The position numbers were made by a program, and so were the translations under genes. From Pseudodesulfovibrio sp. 5S69 (GTDB lineage: Bacteria > Desulfobacterota > Desulfovibrionia > Desulfovibrionales > Desulfovibrionaceae), in contig NZ_CP146609.1 of NCBI RefSeq assembly GCF_037094465.1, positions 1,489,501 through 1,553,500 of the forward strand: 64,000 nucleotides of DNA, in the 5' to 3' direction. A model generated the notes under the pieces. It was given only the letters and a program-made list of their open reading frames with translations, made no database searches and was not told where the DNA came from. Each line of letters opens with the position of its first letter. Position 1 is the first letter of the stretch. This document shows positions 32,959 to 50,207 of the stretch, one piece after another.

Positions 32959-35900
32959 CTATTCCGGGGCGGCCTGCCGCCGGGTCCGGCCGAAAAGCCG
33001 GTTCAGCCACTGCTGGGCCGCATCGAGGTACATGAAGTAGACCGGGGTGAAGTACAGGGTCAGGAGCTGGGAGACCAGCAGGCCGCCTACCACGGCCAGG
33101 CCCAGGGGACGCCGGGCCTCGGCTCCCGCGCCCAGGCCGAGCGCGATGGGCAGGGTGCCCATGAGCGCGGCCATGGTGGTCATCATGATCGGCCGGAAGC
33201 GGATGAGCGCGCCCTCACGGATGGCCGCGGCCGCGCCCCGGCCGTGTTCGCGCTGGGCCTCCACCGCGAAGTCGATCATCATGATCGCGTTCTTCTTGAC
33301 GATGCCGATGAGCATGATGATGCCCACGAACCCGTATATGTTCAGATCCTGCCCGAAGAGCATGAGGGTCAGCAGCGCGCCCACGCCCGCGGACGGCAGG
33401 CCGGACAGGATCGTCAGCGGGTGGACGAAGGACTCATACAGCACGCCGAGGACCAGGTAGATGACCAGGATGGCCATGACCAGCAGGACCCACAGCCCGC
33501 GCATGGAATCCTGGAAGGCCTGGGCCTCGCCCTGGAAGCTGGTGGATACGGATGCGGGCACGACCTCGGCCGCCAGCTTGGAGACCGCGTCCACGGCCGA
33601 GCCGAGCGACTCGCCGGGCTCCAGGTTGAAGGAGATGGTCGCGGACGGCAGTTGGCCCGAGTGGTTGACGGACAGCGGCCCCACGCCCAGGCCCCACTTG
33701 GCCAGGGTCTCCAGGCGCACGAGCTTGCCGTTCTGGGAGCGCACCGAGAGCATGGCCAGGGCGTCCGGGTTGGACTGGTACTGCGGGGCCAGCTCCATGA
33801 TCACGTCGTAGGTGTCGGTGGGCGCGTAGATGGAGGAAATCTTGCGGTTGCCGAAGGAGGTCGAGAGGGCGTCCTCGATCTGGTAGGCGGAGATGCCCAG
33901 CGCCGAGGCCTTGTCGCGGTCGATGTCGATGTTCAGTTCCGGGTTGTCGAACTCCATGTCCGAGGAGACATCCTGGATGCCGGGCAGGTCCTGCATGCGC
34001 TTTTCCATGTTCGCGGCGGCCTGGAAGAGCAGCTCGGTGCCGGGGCTCTGGAGGGTATACTGGTACTGCCCCTTGGAGCTGCGCCCGCCGATGCGGATGG
34101 CCGGGGGGTTGGACACGTAGGCCCGGATGCCCGGCACCTGCGAGAGCTTGGCCCGCAGTCGCTGCTGGATCACGTCTATGCTGCCGCGCTCGCGGCGCGG
34201 CTTGAGGTCGACCATCAGCCGCCCGGAGTTGCCGCCCCGGTTGGGGCCGCCCCCGCCGACCACGGACATGTAGTTTTCCACGGCCGGGTCCGTGGCCAGG
34301 ATGTGCATGAGCGCCTGCTGGCGTTGCTTCATGATGTCGAAGGCCACGCCCTGTTCGGCCTCGGTGCGGACCATCAGCCGCCCGGCGTCCTCGGTGGGCA
34401 GGAACCCCTTGGGGATGGCCCGGAACAGGACCACGGTCAGAGCCAGAACCAGGATCGAGGCGAGCATGGTCAGCCGGTGGTGTCTGAGCGTCCAGTCCAG
34501 GGTGTGGGCGTAGACGTCCCGCAGCCCGTTGAAGCCCCGCTCGAACAGGTTGAAGAGCCTGCCGTGGCGCTGCTCGCCTTCCTGCGGCTTGATGATCAGG
34601 CTGCACAGCATGGGGGTCAGGGTCAGGGAGACCAGCCCGGAGATGAGGATGGAGGCGCAGATGGTCACCGCGAACTCGTGGAACAGACGGCCGACGATGC
34701 CGCCCATGAAGAGCACGGGGAGGAACACGGCGGCCAGCGAGATGGTCATGGACACGATGGTGAAGGCGATCTCCCTCGAACCGTCCATGACCGCCTCCAT
34801 GGTCGACTTGCCCATCTCCCCGTGGCGGACGATGTTTTCGAGCATGACGATGGCGTCGTCCACCACGAAGCCCACGGACAGGGTCAGGGCCATGAGCGAG
34901 ATGTTGTTCAGGGAAAACCCGTACAGGTACATGACCGCGAAGGTGCCGATGACGGACATGGGCAGGGCCAGGCTCGGGATGATCGTGGCCGACAGCCTGC
35001 GCAGGAAGAGAAAGATGACCGTGATGACCAGGGCCACGGTGAGCAGCAGGGTGAACTGCACGTCCTCGATGGACTCCTTGATGGACTCGGAGCGGTCGTA
35101 GAGCACGTTGAGGTCGACCGCGGCGGGCAGTTGGGCCTGCATGGACGGCAGCAGGGCGCGCACGGCCTTGACCACGTCCACGGTGTTGGTGCCGGGCTGG
35201 CGCTGGATGGCCAGAACCATGCCGGGCTGGCCGTTGTACCAGTTGCGGCGACGGGTCTCGGACACGGAGTCGAATACGTCGGCCACGTCGGACAGGCGCA
35301 CGGGCGCGCCCTTGCGCCAGGCCACCACCAGTGGCTTGTAGTCCTCGGCGTTCATCAGCTTGCCGTTGGACCGGACGATGTACTCGCGCACCGGTCCGGC
35401 CACGGTGCCGACCGGCAGGTTGACGTTGCCCTTGCGCACGGCCTCGGCCACCTCGTCCACGCCCAGCTCCATGACCGAGAGTTTCTCGGGCGAGAGCTGG
35501 ATGCGCACCGCGTACTTCTGGGAGCCGTAGACCATGACCTGGGCCACGCCGTTGACCATGGAGATGCGCTGGGCCATGAAGTTCTCGGCGTATTCGTTGA
35601 CGTCGGACAGCCGCATGGTCGGCGAGGAGAGCGAAAGATAGAGGATCGGCGAGTCCGCCGGGTTGACCTTGCGGAAGCTCGGCGTGGAGGTCATGTCGTC
35701 GGGCAGCCGCCGCAGCGCCGTGGTGATGGCCGACTGCACGTCCAGCGCCGCGTCGTCGATGTTCCGCTCCAGGTCGAACTGGAGGGTGATGCGCGTGCTG
35801 CCCAGGCTGGAGATGGAGGTCATGGAGTCCAGGCCCGCGATGGTCGAGAACTGCTTCTCCAGCGGGGTGGCCACGGACGAGGCCATGGTCTCGGGGTTGG

Positions 35901-36060
35901 CCCCGGAGAGCTGGGCCGAGACCTCGATGGTCGGGAAGTCCACGCTGGGCAGGTCGGACACCGGCAGGCGCAGGTAGGCCATGATGCCGAAGACCAGAAT
36001 GGCGATCATGACCAGGGTGGTCATGATCGGGCGGCGGACGAAGATGGCGGACGGGTTCAT
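32959..36060 (-). CDS. RND-family multidrug efflux permease (MdtB/MdtC-like)
   Basis: A 1033-residue inner-membrane pump. The N-terminus SAIFVRRPIMTTLVMIAILV is typical of the MdtBC/AcrB group. TM4 carries GFVVDDAIVMLENIV with the proton-relay Asp pair intact, unlike the RND protein at 6254. It shares one base with the adaptor stop (TAATG). No outer-membrane factor lies nearby. Confidence 0.94.
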   Translation of the reverse strand: MNPSAIFVRRPIMTTLVMIAILVFGIMAYLRLPVSDLPSVDFPTIEVSAQLSGANPETMASSVATPLEKQFSTIAGLDSMTSISSLGSTRITLQFDLERNIDDAALDVQSAITTALRRLPDDMTSTPSFRKVNPADSPILYLSLSSPTMRLSDVNEYAENFMAQRISMVNGVAQVMVYGSQKYAVRIQLSPEKLSVMELGVDEVAEAVRKGNVNLPVGTVAGPVREYIVRSNGKLMNAEDYKPLVVAWRKGAPVRLSDVADVFDSVSETRRRNWYNGQPGMVLAIQRQPGTNTVDVVKAVRALLPSMQAQLPAAVDLNVLYDRSESIKESIEDVQFTLLLTVALVITVIFLFLRRLSATIIPSLALPMSVIGTFAVMYLYGFSLNNISLMALTLSVGFVVDDAIVMLENIVRHGEMGKSTMEAVMDGSREIAFTIVSMTISLAAVFLPVLFMGGIVGRLFHEFAVTICASILISGLVSLTLTPMLCSLIIKPQEGEQRHGRLFNLFERGFNGLRDVYAHTLDWTLRHHRLTMLASILVLALTVVLFRAIPKGFLPTEDAGRLMVRTEAEQGVAFDIMKQRQQALMHILATDPAVENYMSVVGGGGPNRGGNSGRLMVDLKPRRERGSIDVIQQRLRAKLSQVPGIRAYVSNPPAIRIGGRSSKGQYQYTLQSPGTELLFQAAANMEKRMQDLPGIQDVSSDMEFDNPELNIDIDRDKASALGISAYQIEDALSTSFGNRKISSIYAPTDTYDVIMELAPQYQSNPDALAMLSVRSQNGKLVRLETLAKWGLGVGPLSVNHSGQLPSATISFNLEPGESLGSAVDAVSKLAAEVVPASVSTSFQGEAQAFQDSMRGLWVLLVMAILVIYLVLGVLYESFVHPLTILSGLPSAGVGALLTLMLFGQDLNIYGFVGIIMLIGIVKKNAIMMIDFAVEAQREHGRGAAAAIREGALIRFRPIMMTTMAALMGTLPIALGLGAGAEARRPLGLAVVGGLLVSQLLTLYFTPVYFMYLDAAQQWLNRLFGRTRRQAAPE

Positions 36061-37271
36061 TATTGCCCGCCCTCGGCCGGCGGCTTTTCACCGCCCTTGG
36101 CCTGCCCGTTCTTGACGGCCACCCTGGCGCCGGGGCTCAGGCCCACCTGGCCGTCCAGGACCACCAGCTCACCGGGTTCGATGCCGGAGTCCACGACCGT
36201 GCGCCTGCCCACGATGTGGGAGGTGGCCACCTGCCTGGCCTCCACGGTGCCGGACGCCGGGTCGTTTTCGGCCGTTTTGACCACGTACACGTACGGCCCC
36301 TCCATGCCCTGGAGCACGGCCCCGGTGGGCAGGAGCAGGGCGCCCTTTATGGTCCGCAGGGTCAGCTCCACCCGGGCGAACTGGCCGGGCCAGAAGCGGG
36401 TGTCCTCGTTGGGATAGGAAGCCAGCAGCCGGATGGTGCCCGTGGTCGTGTCCACGGCGTTGTCCACGGCGGCCAGGTCCGCCGCGACCGGCGTGGAGCT
36501 CGTGCCGGACGGGGTGATGGACACGCGTATGGGGCCCTGTCTGCGGCGTTCCATGATCTCGCCCAGGTAGCGCTCGGGCAGGGTGAAGGAGACGTTGATC
36601 GGCCTGATCTGGTTGATGACGCAGAGCGTGCGGTCGTCGTTGGCCTTGATGACGTTGCCCACGTTGACCTGGACGATGCCGACGCGCCCGGAAATGGGCG
36701 CGCGGATGGCGGCGTAGTCCCGGTCGAGGCGGGCCTGTTCCAGGGCGGCCTCGTTCAGCCGGATGGTGTTCTCCAGCGACGTGGCCTCGGCATAGGTGTT
36801 GTCGTACTGCTCCTGGGCGACCACGTTCAGGTCGCGCAGCTTGGAGTAGCGGCGCAGGTCCTCCTTGGCCTTGTTCAGGTGGGCGCGGTCGCGGTCAAGG
36901 CGGGCCTGGGCTTCTTTTACGGCCAGGTCGAAGCGCCGCGGGTCCACCTGGAAGAGCAGGTCGCCCGCCTTCACGTCCTGGCCGTTTTGGACCAGCTGCC
37001 TCTCGATGATCCCGCCCACCCTGGACTTGATCTCCACCGAGGCCAGCGGGGTGACGTTGCCCACGGCCGACAGGGTCACGGGCACGTCCTCGCGCACGGC
37101 GGCCACGGCCGTGACCGGGACCACCCGTTCGCGCCGGGCCTTCTTGTCGTTGCCCCCGCAGGCCGCGAGCAGGCAGACGAGGACCAGGCAGAGCAGCCCG
37201 GCGGACACACGGCCGAGGACCTTGCTCCGGGGCCGGTTTCCGTTGCGTTTCGAGAAATGCGAGCGAGGCAC
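36060..37271 (-). CDS. RND periplasmic adaptor lipoprotein (MdtA-like)
   Basis: A 403-residue adaptor. A long basic N-terminus leads into the hydrophobic segment VSAGLLCLVLVCLLAACGGN, with lipobox LAAC. Paired lipoyl motifs (VEIKSRVGGIIERQLV and IRAPISGRVGIVQV) flank an alpha-hairpin. It starts at GTG 37271 with GGAGGG close by. It forms an operon with the RND permease; no regulator gene precedes it, unlike the first pump. Confidence 0.92.
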   Translation of the reverse strand: MPRSHFSKRNGNRPRSKVLGRVSAGLLCLVLVCLLAACGGNDKKARRERVVPVTAVAAVREDVPVTLSAVGNVTPLASVEIKSRVGGIIERQLVQNGQDVKAGDLLFQVDPRRFDLAVKEAQARLDRDRAHLNKAKEDLRRYSKLRDLNVVAQEQYDNTYAEATSLENTIRLNEAALEQARLDRDYAAIRAPISGRVGIVQVNVGNVIKANDDRTLCVINQIRPINVSFTLPERYLGEIMERRRQGPIRVSITPSGTSSTPVAADLAAVDNAVDTTTGTIRLLASYPNEDTRFWPGQFARVELTLRTIKGALLLPTGAVLQGMEGPYVYVVKTAENDPASGTVEARQVATSHIVGRRTVVDSGIEPGELVVLDGQVGLSPGARVAVKNGQAKGGEKPPAEGGQ

Positions 37272-37663
37272 GTGCCCTCCATGTATGGAGCCCCGCGACA
37301 GGCGGGCGCCGGATGTCCGTCAAGCCGCCGGTACCCGGCGGACGGTTGTTCGGTTCACACTGACCGCGTTTATAATTGCAAAGATTCGCAAACACAATGG
37401 GTCTTCGCCCAGGAATGCGGGCCCGGACGGCCGGGCCGTGTCACCGCGCGGGGAATCGCCGTATGAATACGGCGGGTTGATGCGCCCGCGGCGTCCCGCT
37501 CCGGGCGCACCCTTTTTTTCGACGGCGCCCTCGGGACCGGCCTGGCCGCGTGCGGGAAAGGTTTTGCAAATAGTTGATCACGATCAATGTGACGATCGGA
37601 AAATTCTCCTACAGTATATGCGTGAATATCCAATAATGGATTGGAATGTAAGGAGGTATAGCA
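37272..37663 (+). promoter_or_regulatory. 392-nt divergent region between the MdtA-like gene and the ferredoxin operon
   Basis: No gene. The right half carries a perfect FNR-type box (37574-37587) and a weak -10-like TACAGT near 37609. GGAGG (37651-37655) serves the ferredoxin start. The left half should hold the pump promoter on the minus strand, but no clear site was found. Confidence 0.5.
37574..37587 (+). promoter_or_regulatory. FNR/CRP-family box TTGATCACGATCAA
   Basis: A perfect match to the FNR consensus TTGAT-N4-ATCAA. With a -10-like TACAGT at 37609-37614, the box centre would sit near -41, the usual activating position. It lies 76 nt before the first codon of the ferredoxin/NrfD/cytochrome operon and suggests anaerobic or redox control. 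Confidence 0.65.
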
Positions 37664-38587
37664 ATGACAATTTCCCGCAGAGGATTTTTGGGGGCAGTGG
37701 GGATCGCGGGGGCGGCCTCGACCATGCCCGGCACTGCGCAGGCCTGGCAATCCAAGGCGCCGCCCGACCCCTACGGCTGCCTGGTGGACCTGACCCGGTG
37801 CGTGGGGTGCCGCAAGTGCGAGCAGGCGTGCAAGGAGGTCAACGACCTGCCCGAACCCGCCGTGAAGTTCGACGACCTGACCGTGCTGGACGCCAAGCGG
37901 CGGCCGGACCAGAACACCTTCACGGTCATCAACCGCTATTATACGGGCCGCATCGACGAGCGCGACAAGTTGGTGCCGACCTTCGTCAAGGTACAGTGTA
38001 TGCACTGCCAGGACCCGGCCTGCGTGTCGGCTTGCATCACCGGGGCCTTGACCAAGAAGGACAACGGTGCCGTGCACTACGACGTGAACAAGTGTATCGG
38101 CTGCCGCTACTGCATGGCCGCCTGCCCCTTCGAGATCCCGGCCTACGAGTACGACCGGCCCATCCTGCCCAGGGTGCGCAAGTGCACGTTCTGCTTCGAG
38201 CGCATCTCCAAGGAAGGCGGCAAGCCCGGCTGCGCGTCCATCTGTCCGGTGGAGGCCATCACCTTCGGGCGGCGCAGCGAGCTGCTCACGCTGGCTCGCG
38301 GACGCATCGAAGGCGATCCCGGCAAGTACATCGACCATATCTACGGCGAACGGGAAGTGGGCGGCACGAGCTGGCTGTACATCTCCAACGTGGAGTTCGG
38401 GAAGGTCGGCTTCCAGAAGCTGCCGACCCGGCCCATGCCGCAGACCACGGAGACCATCCAGAGCTCGCTGTTCAGCTACCTGTGGTCGCCGCTGGCCCTG
38501 TTCGGGGTCCTGGGGGCGGTCATGGGCGCGACCTCCCGCAAGCACGACGCCGACACGCACGACAAGGAGGACGGCCATGACGCATAA
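37664..38587 (+). CDS. Tat-exported 4x[4Fe-4S] ferredoxin subunit (HybA-like)
   Basis: A 307-residue periplasmic electron-transfer subunit. It has a Tat signal ([11 protein letters not shown]) and four cysteine clusters: [37 protein letters not shown] and the split CTFC...CASICPV. A C-terminal helix ([15 protein letters not shown]) anchors it to the membrane, as in HybA. It probably passes electrons between the NrfD/HybB-type quinone protein and the multihaem cytochrome encoded next. It overlaps the next gene by 11 nt. Confidence 0.93.
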
Positions 38588-39740
38588 GCCGCAACCCATC
38601 GACCGGCCCTTCTGGACCCCGGGCGTGCTGGTCATGCTGGCCCTGATGATCGGGGCGGCCCTGACTCTCATCGTCCGCTACACCTACGGGCTGGCCGCCG
38701 TGACCAACCTGAACAACCACTACCCCTGGGGCATCTGGATCGGACTGGACGTGGCCTCGGGCGTGGCCCTGGCTGCGGGCGGGTTCACCACCGCCTTCCT
38801 GGCGCACATCCTGGGGCGCCACTATTACGAGGCCGTGACCCGGCCCGCGCTGCTGACCGCCGCGCTCGGCTACACCTTCGTGGCCCTGGCCGTGTTCTTC
38901 GACATCGGGCGGTCCTGGGCCATCTGGAAGCCGGTCGTCTACCAGAACCACACCTCGGCCCTGTTCGAGGTGGCCATGTGCGTCATGGCCTACGTGACCG
39001 TGCTGTGGATCGAGTTCATCCCGGTCCTGGCCGAGCGGCTGGGCGGCAAGATCAGGCTGCTGGCCTTCCTGGACCGCATCCTGGACAAGACCATGTGGGT
39101 CTTCATCATCCTCGGGGTGGTGCTGTCCTGCATGCACCAGTCCAGCCTGGGCACCCTGATGGTCATCGCCCCGACCAAGACGTCGCCCCTGTGGGCCACG
39201 CCGCTGCAACCGCTGCTCTTCCTGACCTCGGCCTTTGCCGTGGGCTATCCCATGGTCATCGTGGAGACGACCATCGCCACCTCCTCGCTCAGGCTGGAGT
39301 CGGAGATGAACGTACTCACGCCGCTGTCCCGGATCACCATCCTGCTGCTCGGCGTGTACCTGGCCATCAAGGTCGGGGACTTGGTCTCGCGGGGCGCGTA
39401 CGCCACCCTGCTGGACGGTTCGGCCCAGAGCAACGCCTTCCTGGTGGAGGTCGGGCTCGGGGTGATCCTGCCGTGGGTCATGCTGCTCTTCCCGGCGGTG
39501 CGCCGCTCGCGAAGGTGGCTGTTCACCGCGGCCCTGCTCATCGTCTCGGGTGTCATGCTCAACCGGTTCAACGTGTTCGTGGTCTCGTTCAAGGCCCCGT
39601 ACGCGAACCATCCGTATTATCCGGCCATCGGCGAGATACTCGTCACCGCCGGGGCCGTGGCCACGATCTTCTTCCTCTATAGGCTGATCGTGACCTGGTT
39701 TCCGGTGTTGTCCGCCCAACGACAGGAGGTGTCCCGATGA
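38577..39740 (+). CDS. NrfD/HybB-type quinone-reactive membrane protein
   Basis: A 387-residue integral membrane protein with about ten helices. Family-like segments are [20 protein letters not shown] near residue 45 and [17 protein letters not shown] near 180. It exchanges electrons with menaquinone at the membrane. It overlaps the ferredoxin gene by 11 nt and the cytochrome gene by 4 nt, so stoichiometric assembly of a three-part complex is expected. Confidence 0.93.
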
Positions 39741-41905
39741 AGACCAAGTCGAGGAAGCTACTCGGATGGTCGGCGCTGGCCGTCACGGCCGTGGTCCTGT
39801 GGACCATGGTTCCGGCCTGGACCGCCACACCTCCGGCCGGCAAGGCCGAGCCCGTGGTCAAGTCCCGCAAGGACCTGACCCCCAAGCCCGAGGGCTGGTC
39901 GCCGGTGGACGAGGTCAAGGCGGAGCAGATGGCCCGCAAGCCGCATCCCTACGTGGAGAAGGTACTCATGGAGGACCTGCCCCTGCGTCAGCAGCGGCTG
40001 CGCAAGCTGGGCATCGGCCCCAAGGACATGAAGCAGAGCTACATCCTGCTCGACAGCGAACTGGTCGACACCTACGAGCGCAAGTACGAGCCCGTGCGCT
40101 TCATGCACGCCAAGCACGCGGCCGCGCTCGGCGGCGACTGCGCCTCCTGCCACCACTACCGTCCCGAGGACCCTGCGGCCCCGGAGATCATGGCCTGCCG
40201 CTCCTGCCATCAGGAATCCTTCTCCGAGAAGGACCCCAAGCGCATCGGGCTCAAGGCCGCCTACCACATGCAGTGCATGAACTGCCATGAGAAGATGAAG
40301 AAGGGGCCGGTCAGTTGCGAGGGCTGCCACGCCAAGCGCCCGGTGGACCACAGGGAGCTGGTCAAGCTCCCGGAGAACCCCACCCCGCAGCAGGTCACCA
40401 GGGAATGCCTGCGCTGCCACGAGCAGGCGGGCGAGGACATGCTGACCACGGCCCACTGGCTGTGGCGCGGCCCGTCGCCGTATACGGTCGAACATCGCAA
40501 GAGCGTCATGTCCGGCAAGGGCACGACCACCTTGAACAACTTCTGCCTGTCGGTCATCAGCAACGAGAAGCGCTGCACCTCCTGCCACGCCGGGTACGGC
40601 TGGAAGGACAAGACCTTCGACTTCTCCAAGCAGGAGAATATGGACTGCCTGGTCTGCCACGACACCACGGGCAGCTACAAGAAGGCCCCGCCCGCGGCGG
40701 GCATGCCCGACCCCAAGGTGGACATGGTCTACGTGGCCAGGAACGTCGGCCCGACCAGCCGCAAGACCTGCGGCGTCTGCCACTTCAGCGGCGGCGGGGG
40801 CGATGCGGTCAAGCACGCGGACATGTCGGCCCAGCTGTATTGGCCGGACCGCAACTGCGACGTGCACATGGGCGGCTACGACTTCCAGTGCGTGGAGTGC
40901 CACAAGACCCGGAACCACAAGATCTCGGGCCGGTCCACCTCCGTGCCCGTGGCCGAGGGGTTCCGCGCCTGCGAGGACTGCCATACGTCCAAGCCCCACT
41001 ACGGCGACAGTCTGCTCGACCATCACCTGAACAAGCACAGCGAGACCGTGGCCTGCAACACCTGCCATTCGCCCATCTACTCCAAGTGCGCGGCGACCAA
41101 GACCTGGTGGGACTGGTCCACGGCGGGCGACAAGCAGCGCAAGGTGCACAAGGACAAGTACGGCAAGCCGGACTACTCCTGGATGAAGGGCGACTTCCGC
41201 TGGAAGGAGGCGGCCAAGCCCACTTACGAATGGTACAACGGGTTCATGGAGCGCCGCCTGTTGGGCGACTTGATCGAACCGTCGGCCAAGGGGTTCCGCC
41301 CCGGCGAGCACCTGACGCCCGAGCAGAAGGCGGCCATGGTGGTCACGGACATCACCCGCCCGGTGGGCTCCCTGGACGATCCGCACTCCAAGATCACGCC
41401 GTTCAAGATCATGGCGGGCATCCAGCCCGCGGACGCGAAGAACCGCTACCTGCTGGTGCCGCACCTCTTCCCGTACGACAAGGAGGACGCGTCCGCCTTC
41501 TGGAAGGGCACCGACTGGCAGGCCGCGTTCAAGGAGGGCATGGCCAAGGCGGGCCTGCCCTACAGCGGCGAGTACATGTGGGTCGCCACCAACATGTACT
41601 GGCGCATCGAGCACGAGGTCATGCCCAAGGAGCACGCCCTGTCCTGTGCACAGTGCCACGACAGCCTCAGGGGTGAGCGGACCTGCGACCGCTGCCACCA
41701 GGATTCGCGCGGCGCGAAGTTCCGCGAGCTGACGGAAAAGGGCGCGGACTTCGAACTGCTCCGGATGATGGGCCGCGACGTGGGCGAGCTGATCGGTAAG
41801 TCCGACTACATCGACTTCAAAAAGCTCGGCTACAAGGGCGACCCGATCCTCTACGGCGGGCGCTTCACCAAGCTGCCGCTCGGCCGGGGGCCGGACGGCA
41901 AGTAA
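39737..41905 (+). CDS. 13-haem c-type cytochrome: c3-like domain fused to octahaem tetrathionate-reductase-type domain
   Basis: A 722-residue exported protein with 13 CXXCH motifs. An uncleaved or Sec-type leader (LLGWSALAVTAVVLWTMVPA) is followed by a tetrahaem class III-like part, residues about 120-205 (CASCHH, CRSCH, CMNCH, CEGCH). Nine further motifs lie in a region resembling the OTR family (CLRCHEQ...TTAHWLWRG, CTSCHAGYGWKD, CLVCHDTTG, CGVCHFSGGGGDAVKH, CVECH, CEDCH, CNTCH, CAQCH, CDRCH). It is the likely terminal enzyme of this operon, receiving quinol electrons through the c3-like part. The substrate (tetrathionate, nitrite, hydroxylamine or other) is not settled by sequence. Confidence 0.92.
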   Translation: MKTKSRKLLGWSALAVTAVVLWTMVPAWTATPPAGKAEPVVKSRKDLTPKPEGWSPVDEVKAEQMARKPHPYVEKVLMEDLPLRQQRLRKLGIGPKDMKQSYILLDSELVDTYERKYEPVRFMHAKHAAALGGDCASCHHYRPEDPAAPEIMACRSCHQESFSEKDPKRIGLKAAYHMQCMNCHEKMKKGPVSCEGCHAKRPVDHRELVKLPENPTPQQVTRECLRCHEQAGEDMLTTAHWLWRGPSPYTVEHRKSVMSGKGTTTLNNFCLSVISNEKRCTSCHAGYGWKDKTFDFSKQENMDCLVCHDTTGSYKKAPPAAGMPDPKVDMVYVARNVGPTSRKTCGVCHFSGGGGDAVKHADMSAQLYWPDRNCDVHMGGYDFQCVECHKTRNHKISGRSTSVPVAEGFRACEDCHTSKPHYGDSLLDHHLNKHSETVACNTCHSPIYSKCAATKTWWDWSTAGDKQRKVHKDKYGKPDYSWMKGDFRWKEAAKPTYEWYNGFMERRLLGDLIEPSAKGFRPGEHLTPEQKAAMVVTDITRPVGSLDDPHSKITPFKIMAGIQPADAKNRYLLVPHLFPYDKEDASAFWKGTDWQAAFKEGMAKAGLPYSGEYMWVATNMYWRIEHEVMPKEHALSCAQCHDSLRGERTCDRCHQDSRGAKFRELTEKGADFELLRMMGRDVGELIGKSDYIDFKKLGYKGDPILYGGRFTKLPLGRGPDGK

Positions 41906-41929: not shown

Positions 41930-41960
41930 GGCCCGGAGTCGGAAGACTCCGGGCCTTTTT
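41930..41960 (+). terminator. Terminator of the ferredoxin/NrfD/cytochrome operon
   Basis: GGCCCGGAGTC, loop GGAA, GACTCCGGGCC, then TTTTT. A textbook intrinsic terminator 25 nt after the stop. Confidence 0.95.
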
Positions 41961-42261
41961 GCGTCCGGCCCGCGCATGCCGGGGAAGCGTTCCCTGTCCG
42001 TTTTTGCTTCGTTGCATGAAGGAGCGTTGCAACGGGGCAGGAAACCAATGCGTATGTCGTTCCTGCGGATCGGCTATTCTATTGGTTATGCAATGTACTG
42101 TATGCCACTGCTCTGTATTGCATAAGGTTATTATGGTGATTGTTTATTCTGATATTATAATATACGACGTGGAAGCGGTATGTTTTTACGCATTGGTTTG
42201 AATTGTTCATAACCATAATAGTCGAATAGATATGTCCATTTCGCATTGTAAGGAGCACGCT
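41961..42261 (+). promoter_or_regulatory. AT-rich upstream region of the chemoreceptor gene
   Basis: No gene. A nine-base inverted repeat TTATGCAAT (42086-42094) / ATTGCATAA (42117-42125) with a 22-nt spacer sits about 140-180 nt before the start. A TATAAT (42156-42161) is present without a good -35. AAGGAG at 42250-42255 sets the GTG start of the next gene. Confidence 0.45.
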
Positions 42262-43929
42262 GTGAAGACGTTCGAAAAAATCTCTGTGAAACTCTCAGCC
42301 TCATTCGCCTGCATCATTTTACTTGCCGTTGTGCTCGGAGTCATCTCGGTCATGAGCTTGGGTTCAATAAACGAGGACTCGACAATAATGGTGGAGAACT
42401 GGATCCCCTCCATAATCGACGTCAATAGGATCAATACCGCGACCTCGGATTTCCGGATCGCGGAACTGCAGCATACCCTGGCCCTCGATGCTGCGGGCAT
42501 GAGGTCATTCGAAAAAATCATGGAACAGGAAAAGGCGAAGATCAAGGAAGCGTCGGAGGAGTATGCATCGCTCATCTCCAGTGAGAAAGAGCGGGCGCTG
42601 TTCAACGACTTCCGGACGGCCTGGTCGGAATACATGGCTGTGCACGAGAAATTTCTCGTCCTTTCCAGGGCCAACAAGAACGACGAGGCCCAGGCGCTCC
42701 TGCGCGGCAGGTCGGAAAAGGAGTTTGCCGAGGCCAGTGCCGACCTGGAAAAGCTCATTGCCGAGAACTTCAAGGGCGCCCGGGCGCAGAGCGCGCTGGG
42801 CGACGCCAATTTCAGGAGTGCCGAGGCCTGGATCATCTCGATCCTGGCGGGTGTGGTCGTGGTCAGCGTTCTGCTGAGCCTGCTCATCATTCGCAGCCTG
42901 CTCCGCCAACTGGGCGAGGAGCCCTCGCTGATCGCCTCCATCGCGCACCGCATCTCCGAAGGGGACCTGACCCTGAACCTTGCCCGGAGCAAGCCCGCCG
43001 TGGGCGCGTTCGCCGCCATGCAGCAGATGGTCGGGAAGCTCCAGGAGGTGGTTGCCAACGTCCGCGAGGCCGCTGACAACGTGGCCGCCGGCAGCGTCGA
43101 GATCAGTTCCACGGCCGAGGAGATGAGCCAGGGGGCCACGGAACAGGCCGCGGCCGCCGAGGAGGTCTCGGCGAGCATGACCCAGATGGTCGGCAGCATA
43201 GAGCAGAATACCCAGAGCGCCCGGCAGACGGAACGGATTGCCGCCCAGAGCGCGTCGGCCGCCACCGAGGGCGGCGAGGCCGTGTCCCAGACCGTGGCGG
43301 CCATGAAGGACATCGCCGAGCGGATCAACATCATCGAGGAGATCGCCCGGCAGACCAACCTCCTGGCTCTGAACGCGGCCATCGAGGCGGCCCGGGCCGG
43401 AGAGCACGGCAAGGGGTTCGCGGTGGTGGCCGCCGAGGTGCGCAAGCTGGCCGAGCGCAGCGGCACGGCCGCGGCCGAGATCAGCGCATTGTCCTCTTCC
43501 AGCGTGGCCGTGGCCGAGCGCGCCGGGACCATGCTGGCCGGTCTGGTGCCGGACATCAACAAGACCTCGGGGCTGGTGCGGGACATCGCCGTGGCCAGCG
43601 ACGAGCAGAACAGCGGAGCCGCCCAGATCAGCGTGGCCGTCACCCAGCTCGACACGGTCATCCAGCAGAGCGCGTCCTCCACCGAGGAGATGGCCGCCTC
43701 CAGCGAAGAACTGGCCGCCCAGGCCCAGGAGTTGCAAGCCACCATGGCCTTTTTCAAGGTCACGGAGGCCGGTCCCGCGCGTCCGGCCCGCGTCGTGCCC
43801 AAGGCGGCCGTCCGGCGTCCCGCGCGGCCCCACGGCCCGGCTCCGAAGGCGTCCCGTCCGCAGGCGAGGCCCGAGCCCGTGGAACTGGATATGTCCGATG
43901 ACTCGGGCCGGGAGTTCGAACGGTTTTAG
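42262..43929 (+). CDS. Methyl-accepting chemotaxis protein
   Basis: About 555 residues starting at GTG 42262, where AAGGAG lies 6 nt upstream (an ATG ten codons earlier has no such site). Helix 1 ([18 protein letters not shown]), a four-helix-bundle-type periplasmic sensor (about 30-195), helix 2 ([20 protein letters not shown]), HAMP-like region, and the signalling hairpin [20 protein letters not shown] at about 357-400. The tail is Pro/Ala/Arg-rich and ends GREFERF, similar to the aromatic-x-x-aromatic tethers that recruit CheR/CheB. The ligand is unknown. Confidence 0.94.
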
Positions 43930-45986: not shown

Positions 45987-46553
45987 ATGGCGGACCACGC
46001 ACACACCCGTGACGGGGCCCGGGCCCTTCGGGATTTCTTCGCGTCCCGCGACGCGGCGGACCTGAAGCGCGCCTCGGCCGCCGTTTCCGATCACTTTCAT
46101 TTGACCCTCGGCCGGGACATCGACTGGACCGGCGCGGAGTACGACTTCAACCGGCTCTTTGTCGGGCCCATGGCCGTTCCGGCCCCGCCGTTCGCCTCGG
46201 CCTACCAGACCGAACCGGCGCTCATGGGCGAGCCGACCCTGGCCGTGCGCGATGCCTACCGCGCTCTGGGGCTGATGGTCCCGGACCAGGGGCAGACCCC
46301 GGACGACCACCTGGCCTTCGAACTGGACCTGGCGGCGGCAATGCCGGACCCGGAAGAAGGAGCGGGCGGCGACGCCGTCACGGCCGAGGTCCGGGAGTGG
46401 CTCCTGGGTGAGCACCTGCCCGGCTGGGTCCCGGCCTTTGTCGAGGCCGTGAAGGCGCAGCCGGATGTGAGCGCGCCGGTGCGGATGGCCGTGGACGCGC
46501 TCGAAAACTGGCTTGAAGCCACCCGGCCCGCGGCAGGGGCCGGACAGGCATAG
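45987..46553 (+). CDS. TorD/DmsD-family molybdoenzyme chaperone
   Basis: A 188-residue all-helical cytoplasmic chaperone. The family motif region is YDFNRLFVGPMAVPAPPFAS (E/Y-x3-F-x4-PxPPxxS), typical of TorD-like proteins that bind Tat leaders of molybdoenzymes and guard cofactor insertion. GGAGG precedes ATG 45987. It is the first gene of the operon with the DmsA-like catalytic subunit 33 nt downstream. Confidence 0.92.
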   Translation: MADHAHTRDGARALRDFFASRDAADLKRASAAVSDHFHLTLGRDIDWTGAEYDFNRLFVGPMAVPAPPFASAYQTEPALMGEPTLAVRDAYRALGLMVPDQGQTPDDHLAFELDLAAAMPDPEEGAGGDAVTAEVREWLLGEHLPGWVPAFVEAVKAQPDVSAPVRMAVDALENWLEATRPAAGAGQA

Positions 46554-46586
46554 GCAAACTTTCAACGTGATCTGGAGGAGGATCAT

Positions 46587-48833
46587 ATGACAGCGAAAAA
46601 ATGTACGTTCAGCAGACGGCGCTTTCTGCAAGGGGCCGCCGCCGCGGGCGCGGCGGCCATGTTGCCGTGCTCCTTGCTGGTGCCGGGCAAGGCCGAGGCG
46701 GCCGTGTTCAGCGAAGGCGACTACCAGACCTTCCGCAACGCCTGCCCCCGCAATTGCTACGACACCTGCAGCATCAAGACCTACGTCCGGGACGGGGTCG
46801 TCCGGTTCATCGAGGGCGCGCCCGAGTCCACCTTCACGGACGGCGGCCTGTGCGTGAAAGGGTACGCCTATACCCGGCGGCCCTACAGCCCGGACCGGGT
46901 CAAGTACCCCATGGTCCAGGACGGCCGCCGGTCCGGCAAGTGGCGGCGTGTTTCCTGGGACGAGGCCCTGGACATGATCGCCAAGAAGATGCTCAAGCTC
47001 AAGGAGGAGGACGGCAGCCTGCTCGGCCTGGGCATGACCAAGTATTCCGGAAACTTCGGCATCACCAACTACGGCGTGGAAGGGATGATGTCCTCGCTGG
47101 GCTACACCACCCGCTTCGTCGGCACCCCGTGTTGGCCCGCGGGCATCGACGCCCAGAACTACGACATGGGCAACATGTGGTGCAACGACCCCGAGGACAT
47201 GGTCAAGGCCAAGTACGTCATCGTCTGGGGCGCGAACCCGGCCTGGTGCTCGGTCCACTCCATGAAATACATCATGGAAGCCAAGCGGCGCGGGGCCAAG
47301 GTCGTGGTCGTGGACCCGGTCTTCACCCAGACCGCGGCCAAGGGCGACGTCTACTGGCAGCCCAAGACCGCCTCGGACGGGGCGCTCGCCCTGGGCATGG
47401 CCCGGCACATCCTGGACAAGGGGCTGGTGGACGAGGACTTTGTCCGCAATTACGGCCTCGGGTTCGACGAATTCGCCGACTACCTGCGCAACAACGTGAC
47501 GGTCGAGTGGGCCGCCGAGCAGTCCGGCATCCCGGTAAAGGACATCATGGAAGTGGCCGAGGAGTTCGCCACCGCCGACCCGGCGACCATCTGGATAGGC
47601 TACGGTATGCAGCGCCACACCAACGGCGGGGCGTCCGTGCGCTCCATCGACGCGCTGGTGGCCATGACCGGCAACGTGGGCAAGGAAGGAGGCGGCGCGC
47701 GCTACGGCCATCTCCAGACCTGGGGCTTCAACTACCACGCCCTGATCCAGAAGCAGCCCGAGGGGTCCAAGGGATTCGTGGGCGGCGCGGCCAAGGGCGA
47801 GTTCGACTTCACCAGCGGCTCGGGCGCGAGCTACACCGACCGCACGGTGAACATCAACAAGACCGCCCAGGCCATCCTGGACACCACGGACCCGGACATC
47901 CGCATGCTCTGGGTCTCCTGCAAGAACCCGTTCGCCCAGGACTTCGACCGGCCCAAGCTGGAAAAGGCCTTCGACAAGCTGGAGATGGTCGTCACCGTTG
48001 ACCAGTTCTTCAACGAGACCGTGGCCAACTCCGACATCGTCCTGCCGGTGACCACCCTGTTCGAGGAGTGGACGGTCAACGTTTCGTATTGGCATTACTG
48101 GCTGTCGGTCAACGAGCAGGCCATCAAGCCCATGTTCGAGACCAAGTCGAACATCGAAATAGCGGCGGCCCTGTCCAAAAAGATGAACGAACTGGCCCCC
48201 GGCTCCTGCACCTTTCCCCAGGAAATCGATACCAAGGAATGGATGGAGAAGGAATTCAACCAGTCCATCTACGACATGTTCGCCATAAACGACTGGACCG
48301 ACCTGCGCAACGGCCCGGCCAAGGCCCGGCTGAAGTCCTCTGCGGCGTGGAGCGATCACAAATTCGCCACCCCGTCGGGCAAGTACGAGTTCAAGTCCGA
48401 GCTGTGCGCGCAGAACGGCCACAAGGCGCTGCCCGAGTTCAAGGCCGGCCGCGAACGCTACGACAAGTTCCGCCTGCTCACCCCGCACACCAAGTTCGGG
48501 CTCCACTCCCAGTTCGTGAACCTGGACTGGATGCACGAGTACGACAAGGAGCCGTACATCTACATGCACCCCAAGGCCGCGGCCGAGAAGGGCATCGGCG
48601 ACCTGGACATGGTCCGGGTCTTCAACAAGGTGGGCGAGCAGAAGGCCCGGGTCAAGCTGACCGACAACGTGGCCGAGGACTGCCTGCTCATGTACGAGGC
48701 GTGGTTCGGACGGGGCAACGCCTACAACGTCCAGAACCTGGTGGACGACGAATCCGCCGACATGGGCGCGTTCAAGGCCGGGGCTCCGGGCGTGGCCATC
48801 CACGACCAGTTCGCCAACGTCGAGCGGGCCTAG
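46587..48833 (+). CDS. Molybdopterin oxidoreductase catalytic subunit (DMSO reductase superfamily, DmsA/PsrA-like)
   Basis: A 748-residue periplasmic Mo/W enzyme: Tat signal (FSRRRFLQGAAAA), an N-terminal [4Fe-4S] motif (CPRNCYDTCSI...GLCVKG), and bis-MGD contact segments such as YVIVWGANPAWC and GATVR-like DAKRRGAKVVVVDP. The Mo ligand candidate is Cys182 in FVGTPCWPAG. It is paired with a DmsB-like ferredoxin and a DmsC-like anchor, hence a quinone-linked reductase. A Cys ligand leans towards polysulfide/thiosulfate- or related-type enzymes rather than Ser-ligated DMSO reductase. Substrate open. Confidence 0.9.
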   Translation: MTAKKCTFSRRRFLQGAAAAGAAAMLPCSLLVPGKAEAAVFSEGDYQTFRNACPRNCYDTCSIKTYVRDGVVRFIEGAPESTFTDGGLCVKGYAYTRRPYSPDRVKYPMVQDGRRSGKWRRVSWDEALDMIAKKMLKLKEEDGSLLGLGMTKYSGNFGITNYGVEGMMSSLGYTTRFVGTPCWPAGIDAQNYDMGNMWCNDPEDMVKAKYVIVWGANPAWCSVHSMKYIMEAKRRGAKVVVVDPVFTQTAAKGDVYWQPKTASDGALALGMARHILDKGLVDEDFVRNYGLGFDEFADYLRNNVTVEWAAEQSGIPVKDIMEVAEEFATADPATIWIGYGMQRHTNGGASVRSIDALVAMTGNVGKEGGGARYGHLQTWGFNYHALIQKQPEGSKGFVGGAAKGEFDFTSGSGASYTDRTVNINKTAQAILDTTDPDIRMLWVSCKNPFAQDFDRPKLEKAFDKLEMVVTVDQFFNETVANSDIVLPVTTLFEEWTVNVSYWHYWLSVNEQAIKPMFETKSNIEIAAALSKKMNELAPGSCTFPQEIDTKEWMEKEFNQSIYDMFAINDWTDLRNGPAKARLKSSAAWSDHKFATPSGKYEFKSELCAQNGHKALPEFKAGRERYDKFRLLTPHTKFGLHSQFVNLDWMHEYDKEPYIYMHPKAAAEKGIGDLDMVRVFNKVGEQKARVKLTDNVAEDCLLMYEAWFGRGNAYNVQNLVDDESADMGAFKAGAPGVAIHDQFANVERA

Positions 48834-48840
48834 GAGGACA

Positions 48841-49404
48841 ATGATGAAAAAGCAATACGCGTTTCTGGTCGATACCGAGCGGTGCATAGGCTGCTTCACC
48901 TGCGCCATGGCCTGCCGCAACTACTATCATCAGGTGGAGGGCGTGGTCTGGCGCCAGGTCTACCCGTTGAGCGAGGAGATCTATCCCCATCGCGAGCGGG
49001 CCTTCCTGTCGCTTGCCTGCAACCACTGCGAAAACCCGGCCTGCCTGAACGTCTGCCCGGTGGAGGCGTACACCAAGCGGGAGGAGGACGGCGTGGTCGT
49101 CCACCATCAGGAGAAGTGCATCGGCTGCGGCAACTGTATCCGCTCCTGCCCCTACGGCGCGCCCAAGTACAACCCGGTGGAGAAGCGGGCCGAGAAGTGC
49201 AGCCTGTGTCATGAACGGCTGGATGCGGGGCTCAACCCCGCCTGCGTGCAGGCCTGTCCCACGGACGCCCTGCAGCTCATCGACCTGGCCGAGTTCGAGC
49301 GGACCAACGAGGTCCAGTACCCGGCGGGCTATCCCCGGATGGAGGAGCTCAATCCGTCCACCCGGTTCGTCCTGCCCAAAACCCCGAAGATGGTCAGGAG
49401 GTAG
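48841..49404 (+). CDS. 4x[4Fe-4S] ferredoxin subunit (DmsB/PsrB-like)
   Basis: A 187-residue electron-transfer subunit with four Cys clusters: CIGCFTCAMAC, CNHCENPACLNVCPV, CIGCGNCIRSCPYGAPKY and CSLC...CVQACPT. It has no signal of its own, so it is probably exported with the Tat-bearing catalytic subunit. Two ATGs stand in tandem; GGAGG lies 3 nt from the first and 6 nt from the second (48844), which is the likelier start. It carries electrons between the membrane anchor and the Mo subunit. Confidence 0.94.
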   Translation: MMKKQYAFLVDTERCIGCFTCAMACRNYYHQVEGVVWRQVYPLSEEIYPHRERAFLSLACNHCENPACLNVCPVEAYTKREEDGVVVHHQEKCIGCGNCIRSCPYGAPKYNPVEKRAEKCSLCHERLDAGLNPACVQACPTDALQLIDLAEFERTNEVQYPAGYPRMEELNPSTRFVLPKTPKMVRR

Positions 49405-49406
49405 GC

Positions 49407-50207
49407 ATGCAGTCCATGGAACTCCCGCTTGTTGTATTCACCGTATTCTCCCAGGCGGCCATCGGCGTGACCGTGATGCGCGCGGTGCGCACCACGGCCG
49501 ACGGGGCCGGCGCCGAAGACCACGGCGCCCGCCGCGAATGGGGGCTCATCGCCGGGCTCATGGTGTTCGGCATGCTCGGCTCCCTGTTCCACCTGGGGCA
49601 CCCCCTGTCCGCGCCCACGGCGCTCAACCACCTGGGCACGGCCTGGCTTAGCCGCGAGGTCCTGTTCGCCGGGATGTTCACCGGCGTGACCGTGCTGGCC
49701 GTGCTCGTAGCCGGGATCACGGGCAAGCCCGCTCTGGCCTGGCTCGGCACCCTGCTCGGTCTGGGCGTCATCGTGTCCGCGGGCATGACCTATGCGCCCC
49801 CGGCCCTGCCCGCCCTGGACAACGGACTGCCGTTCGCCTTCTTCCTGACCTCGGCCGTGATCCTCGGTGCGGGGTTCGGCAGTTGGTTCGCGGGCGGCGG
49901 CCGCGCGCCGCTCATGGCCCGCATCTTCACCACGGCTCTGGTGGTCGGCCTGGTCCTGAACCTGGCCGCCCCGTGGATATGGCTGTCCGGCGGCACGGTC
50001 ATGCGCATGACCGGCCAAGCCTGGCTCGGTTCGGCCTTCTACTGGGCGCACGTGCTCGTCCTGCTCGGCTGTCTGGGCGTGGTCTGGAAGACCAGGACCA
50101 TCCCGGCCTGGCTGCCCGTGCTCGCCCTGATGGGCGAGCTGGCCGGACGCGCCGGATTCTTCGCCGACACGATCCACACCGCCGCCAACATGGGCGGCCT
50201 GTACTAG
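49407..50207 (+). CDS. DmsC-like membrane anchor subunit
   Basis: A 266-residue protein with about eight helices and DmsC-family features: N-terminal ELPLVVFTVFSQAAIGVTVM and GMLGSLFHLGHPLSAPTALN. It binds menaquinol and feeds the DmsB-like ferredoxin. It starts 2 nt after the ferredoxin stop and closes the torD-dmsABC operon. Confidence 0.92.
   Translation: MQSMELPLVVFTVFSQAAIGVTVMRAVRTTADGAGAEDHGARREWGLIAGLMVFGMLGSLFHLGHPLSAPTALNHLGTAWLSREVLFAGMFTGVTVLAVLVAGITGKPALAWLGTLLGLGVIVSAGMTYAPPALPALDNGLPFAFFLTSAVILGAGFGSWFAGGGRAPLMARIFTTALVVGLVLNLAAPWIWLSGGTVMRMTGQAWLGSAFYWAHVLVLLGCLGVVWKTRTIPAWLPVLALMGELAGRAGFFADTIHTAANMGGLY

Follow-up and report, generated by a model that had tools for sequence, protein, structure and literature searches.

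The operon and its surroundings

The window, that is the whole 64,000-nt stretch of the Pseudodesulfovibrio sp. 5S69 genome analysed here (NZ_CP146609.1, nt 1,489,501 – 1,553,500), carries on its forward strand an operon of three genes, which encode a ferredoxin, an NrfD-type membrane protein and a multihaem cytochrome. The features of the locus, numbered from the first nucleotide of the window, are as follows.

37491..37508, + strand: terminator-like hairpin upstream of the operon (pattern only)
37664..38587, + strand: HybA/HmcB-like ferredoxin, 307 aa (PRK10882, PF13247, HmcB model)
38577..39740, + strand: HybB-like NrfD integral membrane protein, 387 aa (PF03916, 77 bits)
39737..41905, + strand: 13-haem cytochrome, 722 aa (from the N-terminus: signal or anchor, c3 domain, OTR domain, one further haem)
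39758..39814, + strand: N-terminal hydrophobic segment, residues 8–26 (hydropathy; AF2 helix 6–23)
40079..40330, + strand: class III c3 domain, haems 1–4, residues 115–198 (PF02085; fold)
40349..41671, + strand: OTR domain, haems 5–12, residues 205–645 (TIGR04315; 1sp3 by sequence and fold)
40544..40546, + strand: Cys270, codon TGC (this codon is TGA in 57 of the 169 distinct loci compared)
40811..40813, + strand: Lys359 (aligned with K153 of 1sp3)
41024..41026, + strand: His430, candidate distal ligand of the 13th haem (conserved in fused proteins)
41684..41698, + strand: 13th haem motif CDRCH, residues 650–654, outside the OTR core (conserved in fused proteins)
41939..41996, + strand: terminator-like hairpins downstream of the operon (pattern only)

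The gene directly upstream of the operon does not encode a regulator. No -24/-12 promoter pattern (at most one mismatch) was found in nt 37272 – 37664; across the whole window this pattern matched 88 times, relative to 70.3 expected (sd 7.5).

The ferredoxin and NrfD subunits

As initially annotated, overlapping genes for a HybA-like ferredoxin and a HybB/NrfD protein precede the cytochrome gene, an assignment that the analysis supports. The ferredoxin carries a Tat-type motif (SRRGFLG) and, by hydropathy, a C-terminal TM-like segment (residues 269–287). It lies marginally above the cut-off of the NCBIfam HybA model PRK10882 (264.1 bits, cut-off 263) and scores higher with the HmcB model (347.7 bits), but below the cut-off of the latter (420), while with the NrfC model it reaches 100 bits (cut-off 378). 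The NrfD protein scores 330.4 bits with the HybB model PRK10881, below its cut-off of 450, and had no match among PDB sequences at E 0.01. Replacement of four residues in E. coli HybB lowered H2 oxidation (Lubek 2019, as cited in PMC8076601), and the equivalents of all four (R89, Y99, E148 and H184) are conserved in the NrfD protein.

The operon shares with the HybAB genes of E. coli hydrogenase-2 their gene order and an 11-nt overlap, and the products are 40% (HybA) and 35% (HybB) identical, but it lacks hydrogenase subunits and the catalytic partner is a cytochrome. The Hmc and Nhc complexes of Desulfovibrio also combine a multihaem cytochrome containing c3 units with an HmcB-type ferredoxin and an NrfD-type subunit. 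Their cytochromes, however, are electron carriers made of c3 units, without an OTR catalytic domain. Membership of Hmc was rejected, as the scores with all three models fell below the cut-offs (HmcA 65.2 of 400 bits, HmcB 347.7 of 420, HmcC 265 of 550). In MccACD sulfite reductase and NrfABCD, an NrfD-type quinol module likewise feeds a multihaem terminal reductase, but the catalytic cytochromes are different (PMC8076601).

The 13-haem cytochrome

The initial annotation described the cytochrome as a c3-OTR fusion with 13 CXXCH motifs, and this is borne out by the motif count, PF02085, TIGR04315 and the fold: four motifs lie in the class III (c3) domain, eight in the OTR domain, and one is an extra C-terminal motif. 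Chance was rejected as the source of these motifs. Residues 8–26 are either a signal peptide or a membrane anchor, and the sequences of natural NrfD-cytochrome fusions (see below) have a hydrophobic segment at the matching point. The N-terminal part displays the four haems, the bis-His ligand set and the fold of a class III cytochrome c3, and is nearest to the c3 units of HmcA, nine-haem cytochrome and TmcA. Homologue statistics are based on 120 listed of at least 2627 matches, from at least 7994 candidates. Among the matches listed, 109 of 109 fused proteins carry all of H124, H127, H140 and H177, the likely distal ligands of the c3-domain haems.

The remainder of the protein is a true OTR domain: it has the OTR fold with its eight CXXCH haems and scores 485.7 bits with TIGR04315 (tetrathionate reductase family octahaem cytochrome; curated cut-off 375). 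Alignment to 1sp3 places Lys359 at the position of Lys153, which we take to be the distal ligand of the catalytic haem, and its equivalent occurs in 71/71 OTR-only and 108/109 fused proteins among the matches listed. By this alignment Lys359 is the likely ligand of haem II (CTSCH280).

The ninth motif of the OTR-like part had been left unexplained, and can now largely be accounted for as one more haem, lying outside the core of eight. Its motif, CDRCH, and His430 are each present in 109/109 fused and 0/71 OTR-only proteins among the matches listed, and this 13th haem probably serves as a bis-His relay with His430 as a ligand. Shewanella OTR (1sp3, TIGR04315) stands alone as a protein, has the tetrahaem donor STC as an interaction partner and uses haem II as its catalytic haem (PMC4484225), whereas the window protein contains a c3 domain of its own and an added 13th haem.

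Conservation of the three-gene unit

The same gene set is present in many other Desulfobacterota. An NrfD gene lies within about 130 nt upstream of, or is fused to, the cytochrome gene in 40 of 42 distinct c3-OTR loci, the other two having no more than 185 nt of DNA at this side. ('Fused', in locus counts, denotes a tblastn match above 500 bits; contig ends cut the C-terminus of L109 and the N-terminus of L114.) A ferredoxin gene also occurs in all 19 c3-OTR loci with at least 2.5 kb of upstream DNA. In five of the 40, each from a different genome, NrfD and cytochrome form a single polypeptide of 1068–1105 aa with 13 haems. The AF2 model of one such natural fusion was poor (mean pLDDT 62, pTM 0.43), and no orientation of NrfD relative to c3 is therefore claimed. 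Nine neighbourhoods were compared, using crude ORF calling, and nothing recurred beside the unit except regulators and the genes common to one close pair of loci (L014/L015). Crp/Fnr-type regulators lie close by in L009 and L010, and sigma-54 PAS activators in L012, L013 and L014.

Relatives with the OTR domain only have a different setting: a PF01292-type cytochrome b gene lies downstream in 69 of 84 such loci, versus 0 of 33 c3-OTR loci. With the query used, a ferredoxin gene was found within 2 kb upstream in 5 of the 84, all five with cytochrome b as well, so that most of the OTR-only/cytochrome b loci are not established as full Ohc operons. The Ohc complex of sulfate reducers, a name that reportedly goes back to Pereira 2011, resembles the window unit in that an iron-sulfur protein and a membrane protein accompany a periplasmic multihaem cytochrome. 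As described for Desulfovibrio (ohcBAC), its cytochrome OhcA is octahaem and its membrane subunit OhcC carries haem b (PMC4641369). OhcA may itself be an OTR-family protein, judging from the five OTR-only loci that have both ferredoxin and cytochrome b.

Given the shared OTR family, an iron-sulfur partner (OhcB in Ohc) and a sulfate-reducing host, the window unit could be an ordinary Ohc complex and nothing new, but we consider this quite improbable. The membrane subunit is of the NrfD/HybB type, the cytochrome has 13 haems including those of a fused c3 domain and the extra one, no cytochrome b gene follows it, and the c3-OTR type, which arises by one change on the OTR tree, forms a separate clade. 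The membrane subunit and the number of haems were the grounds for rejecting membership of Ohc. In our reading, the c3-OTR/NrfD unit is a quinone-linked design of a second kind, alongside the Ohc complex already known.

Cysteine and TGA at residue 270

Residue 270, ten residues before the catalytic haem II, is Cys in the window protein; the initial annotation mentioned neither this residue nor the Ohc complex. It was compared in 169 distinct loci, a set from which same-genome copies (including four more pairs) and loci whose match misses the residue were left out; of 13 rows that start at residues 309–333, L193–L196 (three TGA, one Cys) were included. All other TGA rows (22 + 30) were taken and Cys rows only in part, so that the 57 TGA loci among 169 do not represent a prevalence. 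All but one of the 169 carry Cys or TGA at residue 270 (168 loci), the exception being L147 with Thr. As 9 of 109 listed 13-haem proteins also have Leu, Thr or Ala here, a chalcogen at this position is not universal.

The TGA codons might be plain stops in decayed or truncated genes, and thus uninformative on the active site; ordinary gene callers would end the gene there, and the overall folding energy after the codon does not tell TGA genes from Cys genes. This explanation was rejected, and we regard it as very improbable, because the codon has a fixed position, is followed by a hairpin, and lies within a match that continues. All 52 TGA-flagged rows (22 + 30) and five further loci have TGA at residue 270, and every in-frame stop shown in the surveyed rows is TGA, with no TAA or TAG among them. 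A perfect stem of at least 7 bp at SECIS distance follows the codon in 56/57 TGA loci versus 0/112 others, against a background of about 1% elsewhere in the same loci. The stem of the TGA genes comes in two unrelated sequences, and in the Cys gene L095, which encodes the same peptide, synonymous codons break the stem. The minimum free energy of a 54-nt stretch starting at codon 270 gave no separation (means -13.6 for TGA, -13.9 for Cys fused and -13.0 for Cys OTR-only genes); only the local stem separates them, which counts against a purely energy-based SECIS claim.

Among the TGA genomes tested, which represent part of the 57 TGA loci, selB scored above its cut-off in 21/21 and tRNA-Sec above 75 bits in 19/21. 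Nearly all Cys-form genomes tested likewise possess the Sec machinery, which therefore does not discriminate the two forms. The features that mark a bacterial selenoprotein (UGA at a conserved Cys, a SECIS-like hairpin, Sec machinery) come together in the TGA relatives. From their sequences, the TGA relatives appear to insert selenocysteine at residue 270, and the TGA codon with its stem at SECIS distance suggests that Cys/Sec270 is probably catalytic. In a sample taken at order level, TGA is present in 12 of the 26 fused genes of full length. At least 10 changes between Cys and Sec are required on the OTR tree (172 rows including four copies, with the Thr locus L147 counted as Cys).

In the portion of the openly licensed literature covered, TIGR04315 is named as a selenoprotein family in a single table row (WP_331457571.1, motif given as '-'; PMC13188914). 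Where the presumed Sec sits in this family, its hairpin, how widely it occurs and its connection with the catalytic haem come from the present analysis.

Proposed function and direction of electron flow

The initial annotation proposed a self-contained, quinol-linked periplasmic reductase. Its operon with a HybA/HybB-type quinone module is upheld by the profiles and the conserved gene set, and we consider the whole proposal probable, as a periplasm-facing quinone oxidoreductase that passes electrons to a small acceptor. The domains, the three-gene unit, the NrfD-cytochrome fusions, the HybB residues and the Cys/TGA exchange with its hairpin form its basis. The three subunits would assemble into a complex that oxidises menaquinol at its HybB-like NrfD subunit and hands the electrons to the HybA-like iron-sulfur protein, which its motif suggests is exported by Tat. 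From there they would enter the fused c3 domain and travel through the haems of the OTR part to haem II (CTSCH280), with Lys359 its likely ligand and Cys270 nearby in sequence, where a small periplasmic acceptor would be reduced.

The opposite direction has to be considered, as PMC6491731 (Table 3) prints the related Ohc complex as TpIc3/menaquinone, and Nhc is given likewise (PMC6491731 Table 3; PMC8076601). Hydrogenases or formate dehydrogenases would then charge a periplasmic type I cytochrome c3, which would dock on the c3 domain of the complex; the latter would reduce menaquinone as Nhc and Qrc do, with the OTR part as a relay or side outlet. The nearness of the c3 part to the units of HmcA, nine-haem cytochrome and TmcA is consistent with this. 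The genome, however, already has Qrc for that job (QrcD, 740 bits), the retention of haem II, Lys359 and Cys270 and the TGA in relatives are hard to square with a pure relay, and the nine neighbourhoods offer no recurrent partner beyond those described above. Such reverse use therefore seems unlikely, and the c3-OTR unit is most likely a menaquinol-dependent periplasmic reductase.

As to the substrate of this reductase, a compound with an S–S or S–O bond (polythionate, thiosulfate or similar) is tentatively favoured, because of the Cys/Sec exchange at residue 270 and the sulfate-reducing host. With the same wiring, the unit could instead be a nitrite/hydroxylamine reductase that protects or feeds a sulfate reducer lacking NrfA, which we hold to be possible but rather doubtful. 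Shewanella OTR reduces nitrite and hydroxylamine (PMC4484225), the genome has no NrfA-type (PF02335) match, and two loci have the Crp/Fnr-type regulators mentioned above. The regulators vary by lineage, however, three loci having sigma-54 PAS types, and there is none directly upstream in the window. The exchange at residue 270 also argues against a nitrogen oxyanion, since Sec/Cys exchange at an active site is commoner with sulfur or selenium chemistry.

On balance, we favour the view that the OTR/Ohc family, including its 13-haem branch, consists of haem-chalcogenide enzymes in which Cys or Sec beside a Lys-ligated haem c would do the chemistry. The window protein would be the Cys form of a family of quinol-linked respiratory selenoenzymes that has repeatedly swapped the two residues. 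We know of no characterised haem c with an adjacent Sec, and such an arrangement would, if true, be an unusual active site. The unit would represent a second, fused way to wire an OTR-type reductase to the quinone pool, one in which the odd ninth motif is accounted for. With Sec/TGA at a single codon near the catalytic haem, the substrate and mechanism of OTR, long open, are now directly testable.

Gene organization and host genome

The cytochrome gene closes a three-gene unit, after a ferredoxin gene and an NrfD gene; successive genes overlap by 11 and 4 nt, and terminator-like patterns bracket the unit (pattern only). The unit and its neighbours in the window are as follows.

32959–37271 (-): RND-type efflux pump and periplasmic adaptor (assigned from translations), oriented divergently to the ferredoxin gene
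37664–38587 (+): HybA-like ferredoxin, carrying a Tat-type motif and, at its C-terminus, a TM-like segment
38577–39740 (+): HybB-like NrfD protein
39737–41905 (+): cytochrome, 722 aa; profile matches to PF02085 (residues 115–198) and, over its cut-off, TIGR04315 (residues 214–643)
42232–43929: methyl-accepting chemotaxis protein (4HB_MCP_1, MCPsignal), immediately 3' of the cytochrome gene
45987–50207: TorD/DmsD-like chaperone and Tat molybdopterin enzyme (profile matches), then a 4Fe-4S protein and a DmsC-like membrane protein (both from sequence only)
50343–52409: sigma-54-type activator, on the strand opposite to the molybdopterin-enzyme genes (likewise)

The 13 CXXCH motifs claimed by the initial annotation are real, as 2000 same-composition shuffles of the frame gave a mean of 0.05 and a maximum of 2. 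Thirteen motifs also occur in 110 of the 120 homologues listed (of 2627), and the closest named protein among the matches listed, at 92% identity, belongs to a Pseudodesulfovibrio MAG. The host genome (one contig, 4.16 Mb) has a single OTR (octahaem tetrathionate reductase) gene, a QrcD match of 740 bits and a dsrA match of 623 bits, the last of which points to a sulfate reducer.

Conservation of the NrfD-c3-OTR unit

Besides marked copies, 45 loci with a fused c3-OTR gene (tblastn > 500 bits) were found, reducing to 42 distinct loci. Setting aside L111 and L114, which have no more than 185 nt of upstream sequence, the remaining 40 all encode NrfD on the same strand, at most about 130 nt before the cytochrome gene or joined to it in one frame, and a ferredoxin gene precedes NrfD in all 19 with at least 2.5 kb upstream. 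The three-gene set thus recurs in many other Desulfobacterota. In five genomes (L164–L168) a single chain of 1068–1105 aa runs from NrfD through a hydrophobic segment and c3 to OTR; it carries 13 haem motifs, and in four of the five one motif is CX3CH. Protein P0031 resembles this fusion. The nearby regulators are not the same throughout: L012, L013 and L014 have sigma-54 PAS activators, L009 and L010 regulators of the Crp/Fnr type.

No adjacent ferredoxin-NrfD pair occurs among the 71 loci examined whose OTR gene lacks c3 (OTR-only); both give weak matches downstream in L031, and in L023 and L026 a ferredoxin is weakly matched several kb off. The 768-aa frame of L031, with 15 CXXCH motifs, is another type of OTR fusion. 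A PF01292-type cytochrome b lies downstream in 69 of the 84 OTR-only loci (of 127 distinct) with 1.5 kb of downstream sequence, and is absent in 15, vs 0 of 33 fused loci; in five of the 84 there is, in addition, a ferredoxin no more than 2 kb upstream. In OTR-only locus L124 (1785–4112), OTR with a hydrophobic C-terminal segment is followed by such a cytochrome b, a layout like that of the Desulfovibrio Ohc complex, reported to comprise OhcA, OhcB and the haem b protein OhcC (PMC4641369). In Thermosulfurimonas dismutans, Mardanov and colleagues described genes for OTR and a cytochrome b subunit side by side, and they proposed a link to the membrane (PMC4911364).

On an OTR-domain tree (172 rows, residue 270 masked, quick search, SH-aLRT only) the fused type needs one change. 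Together with the locus survey, this shows that c3 domain, additional haem and NrfD module travel together and have a single origin in the sample.

A probable thirteenth haem and a cysteine pair

Motif 13 (residue 650), beyond the TIGR04315 match, is the ninth motif of the OTR-like part, which the initial annotation left unexplained. C650, C653, H654 and H430 are invariant in the 109 listed fused proteins and all absent from 71 OTR-only proteins, from which we infer that it binds an added, thirteenth bis-His haem with His430 as ligand. Cys374 and Cys451 are both present in 105 of the 109 and both absent in the other four, a co-occurrence that suggests a disulfide.

Residue 270 and probable selenocysteine

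Residue 270, Cys in the window, lies ten positions before haem II, the reported catalytic haem of OTR (PMC4484225). Genome searches flagged a single in-frame TGA in 22 + 30 homologue rows, all 52 at residue 270, and five further loci share it (the TGA loci are L092, L093, L096–L100, L109–L113, L017, L047, L118–L127, L152–L156, L163, L169–L194 and L196). At codon 270 the 169 distinct loci divide into 57 with TGA, 111 with a Cys codon and one with a Thr codon, which is not a prevalence, TGA rows having been taken in full and Cys rows in part. Both types contribute (fused, n=42: 13 TGA, 28 Cys, 1 Thr; OTR-only, n=127: 44 TGA, 83 Cys), and the TGA/non-TGA state changes at least ten times on the tree.

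TGA genes carry a SECIS-like hairpin: a perfect stem of 7 bp or more, starting 14–24 nt past the start of codon 270, is present in 56 of 57 of them vs 0 of 112 others (Fisher p 2e-44, not to be taken literally because related genes are counted as independent); the stem of the one remaining TGA gene, L181, is broken by a single G-U pair. The background rate for such stems elsewhere in the same loci is 19 of 2163 segments for TGA genes and 26 of 4248 for the others. Two unrelated sequences form the stem, GCAACGA-GGC-TCGTTGC with a one-base variant (29 genes) and CTGGTGCA-GG-TGCACCAG with variants (27 genes). The Cys gene L095 encodes an identical peptide with synonymous codons that disrupt the stem. 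Overall folding energy gave no separation of TGA from Cys genes.

Among 52 genomes tested, selB was over cut-off in 50, including all 21 TGA genomes in the set and the window's own, and tRNA-Sec (> 75 bits) was found in 50, the two that lack it being incomplete TGA genomes (G018, G038). Since the Sec machinery is general in the order, it does not on its own discriminate TGA from Cys genomes.

Nine of the 109 listed fused proteins (P0105, P0109, P0111, P0112, P0114–P0116, P0118 and P0119) have Leu (seven), Thr or Ala at 270, which counts against a universal role of the residue. They keep all haem-ligand positions checked, K359 is present in eight, and they are possibly a third functional class.

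One review table has TIGR04315 among its selenoproteins, with a single accession and without a motif (PMC13188914). In searches of an open-licence library we found no description of a Sec position in the OTR family or of the NrfD-c3-OTR unit.

Proposed quinone link, substrate and electron path

The window NrfD and E. coli HybB share 35% identity. HybB R89, Y99, E148 and H184, replacement of which is reported to lower hydrogen oxidation (PMC8076601), are kept as R89, Y99, E146 and H187. Also kept are D58, D109, S129, E133, Y84, Y141, E155, S186, S187, E291, K198 and R329; S105, T63, Y77, H85, S95, S190, R265, E268 and H200 are changed.

For Ohc, the assignment in print is reverse flow, from TpIc3 to menaquinone, and this could apply here too. 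As to substrate, TsdA, another haem enzyme of thiosulfate/tetrathionate, is reported to act via a cysteine S-thiosulfonate on a haem ligand (PMC4423706), which shows that a combination of haem and chalcogen chemistry suits S-S substrates. Nitrite or hydroxylamine is also a candidate, in favour of which a search for NrfA (PF02335) across the host genome gave no match.

The best reading is that electrons would pass from menaquinol through NrfD, the ferredoxin and c3 to haem II of the OTR domain, where Cys270 and Lys359 would sit. Since Shewanella OTR is reported to interact with the separate tetrahaem cytochrome STC (PMC4484225), a built-in tetrahaem donor is plausible, and the c3 domain may be an analogue of STC, no homology being claimed.
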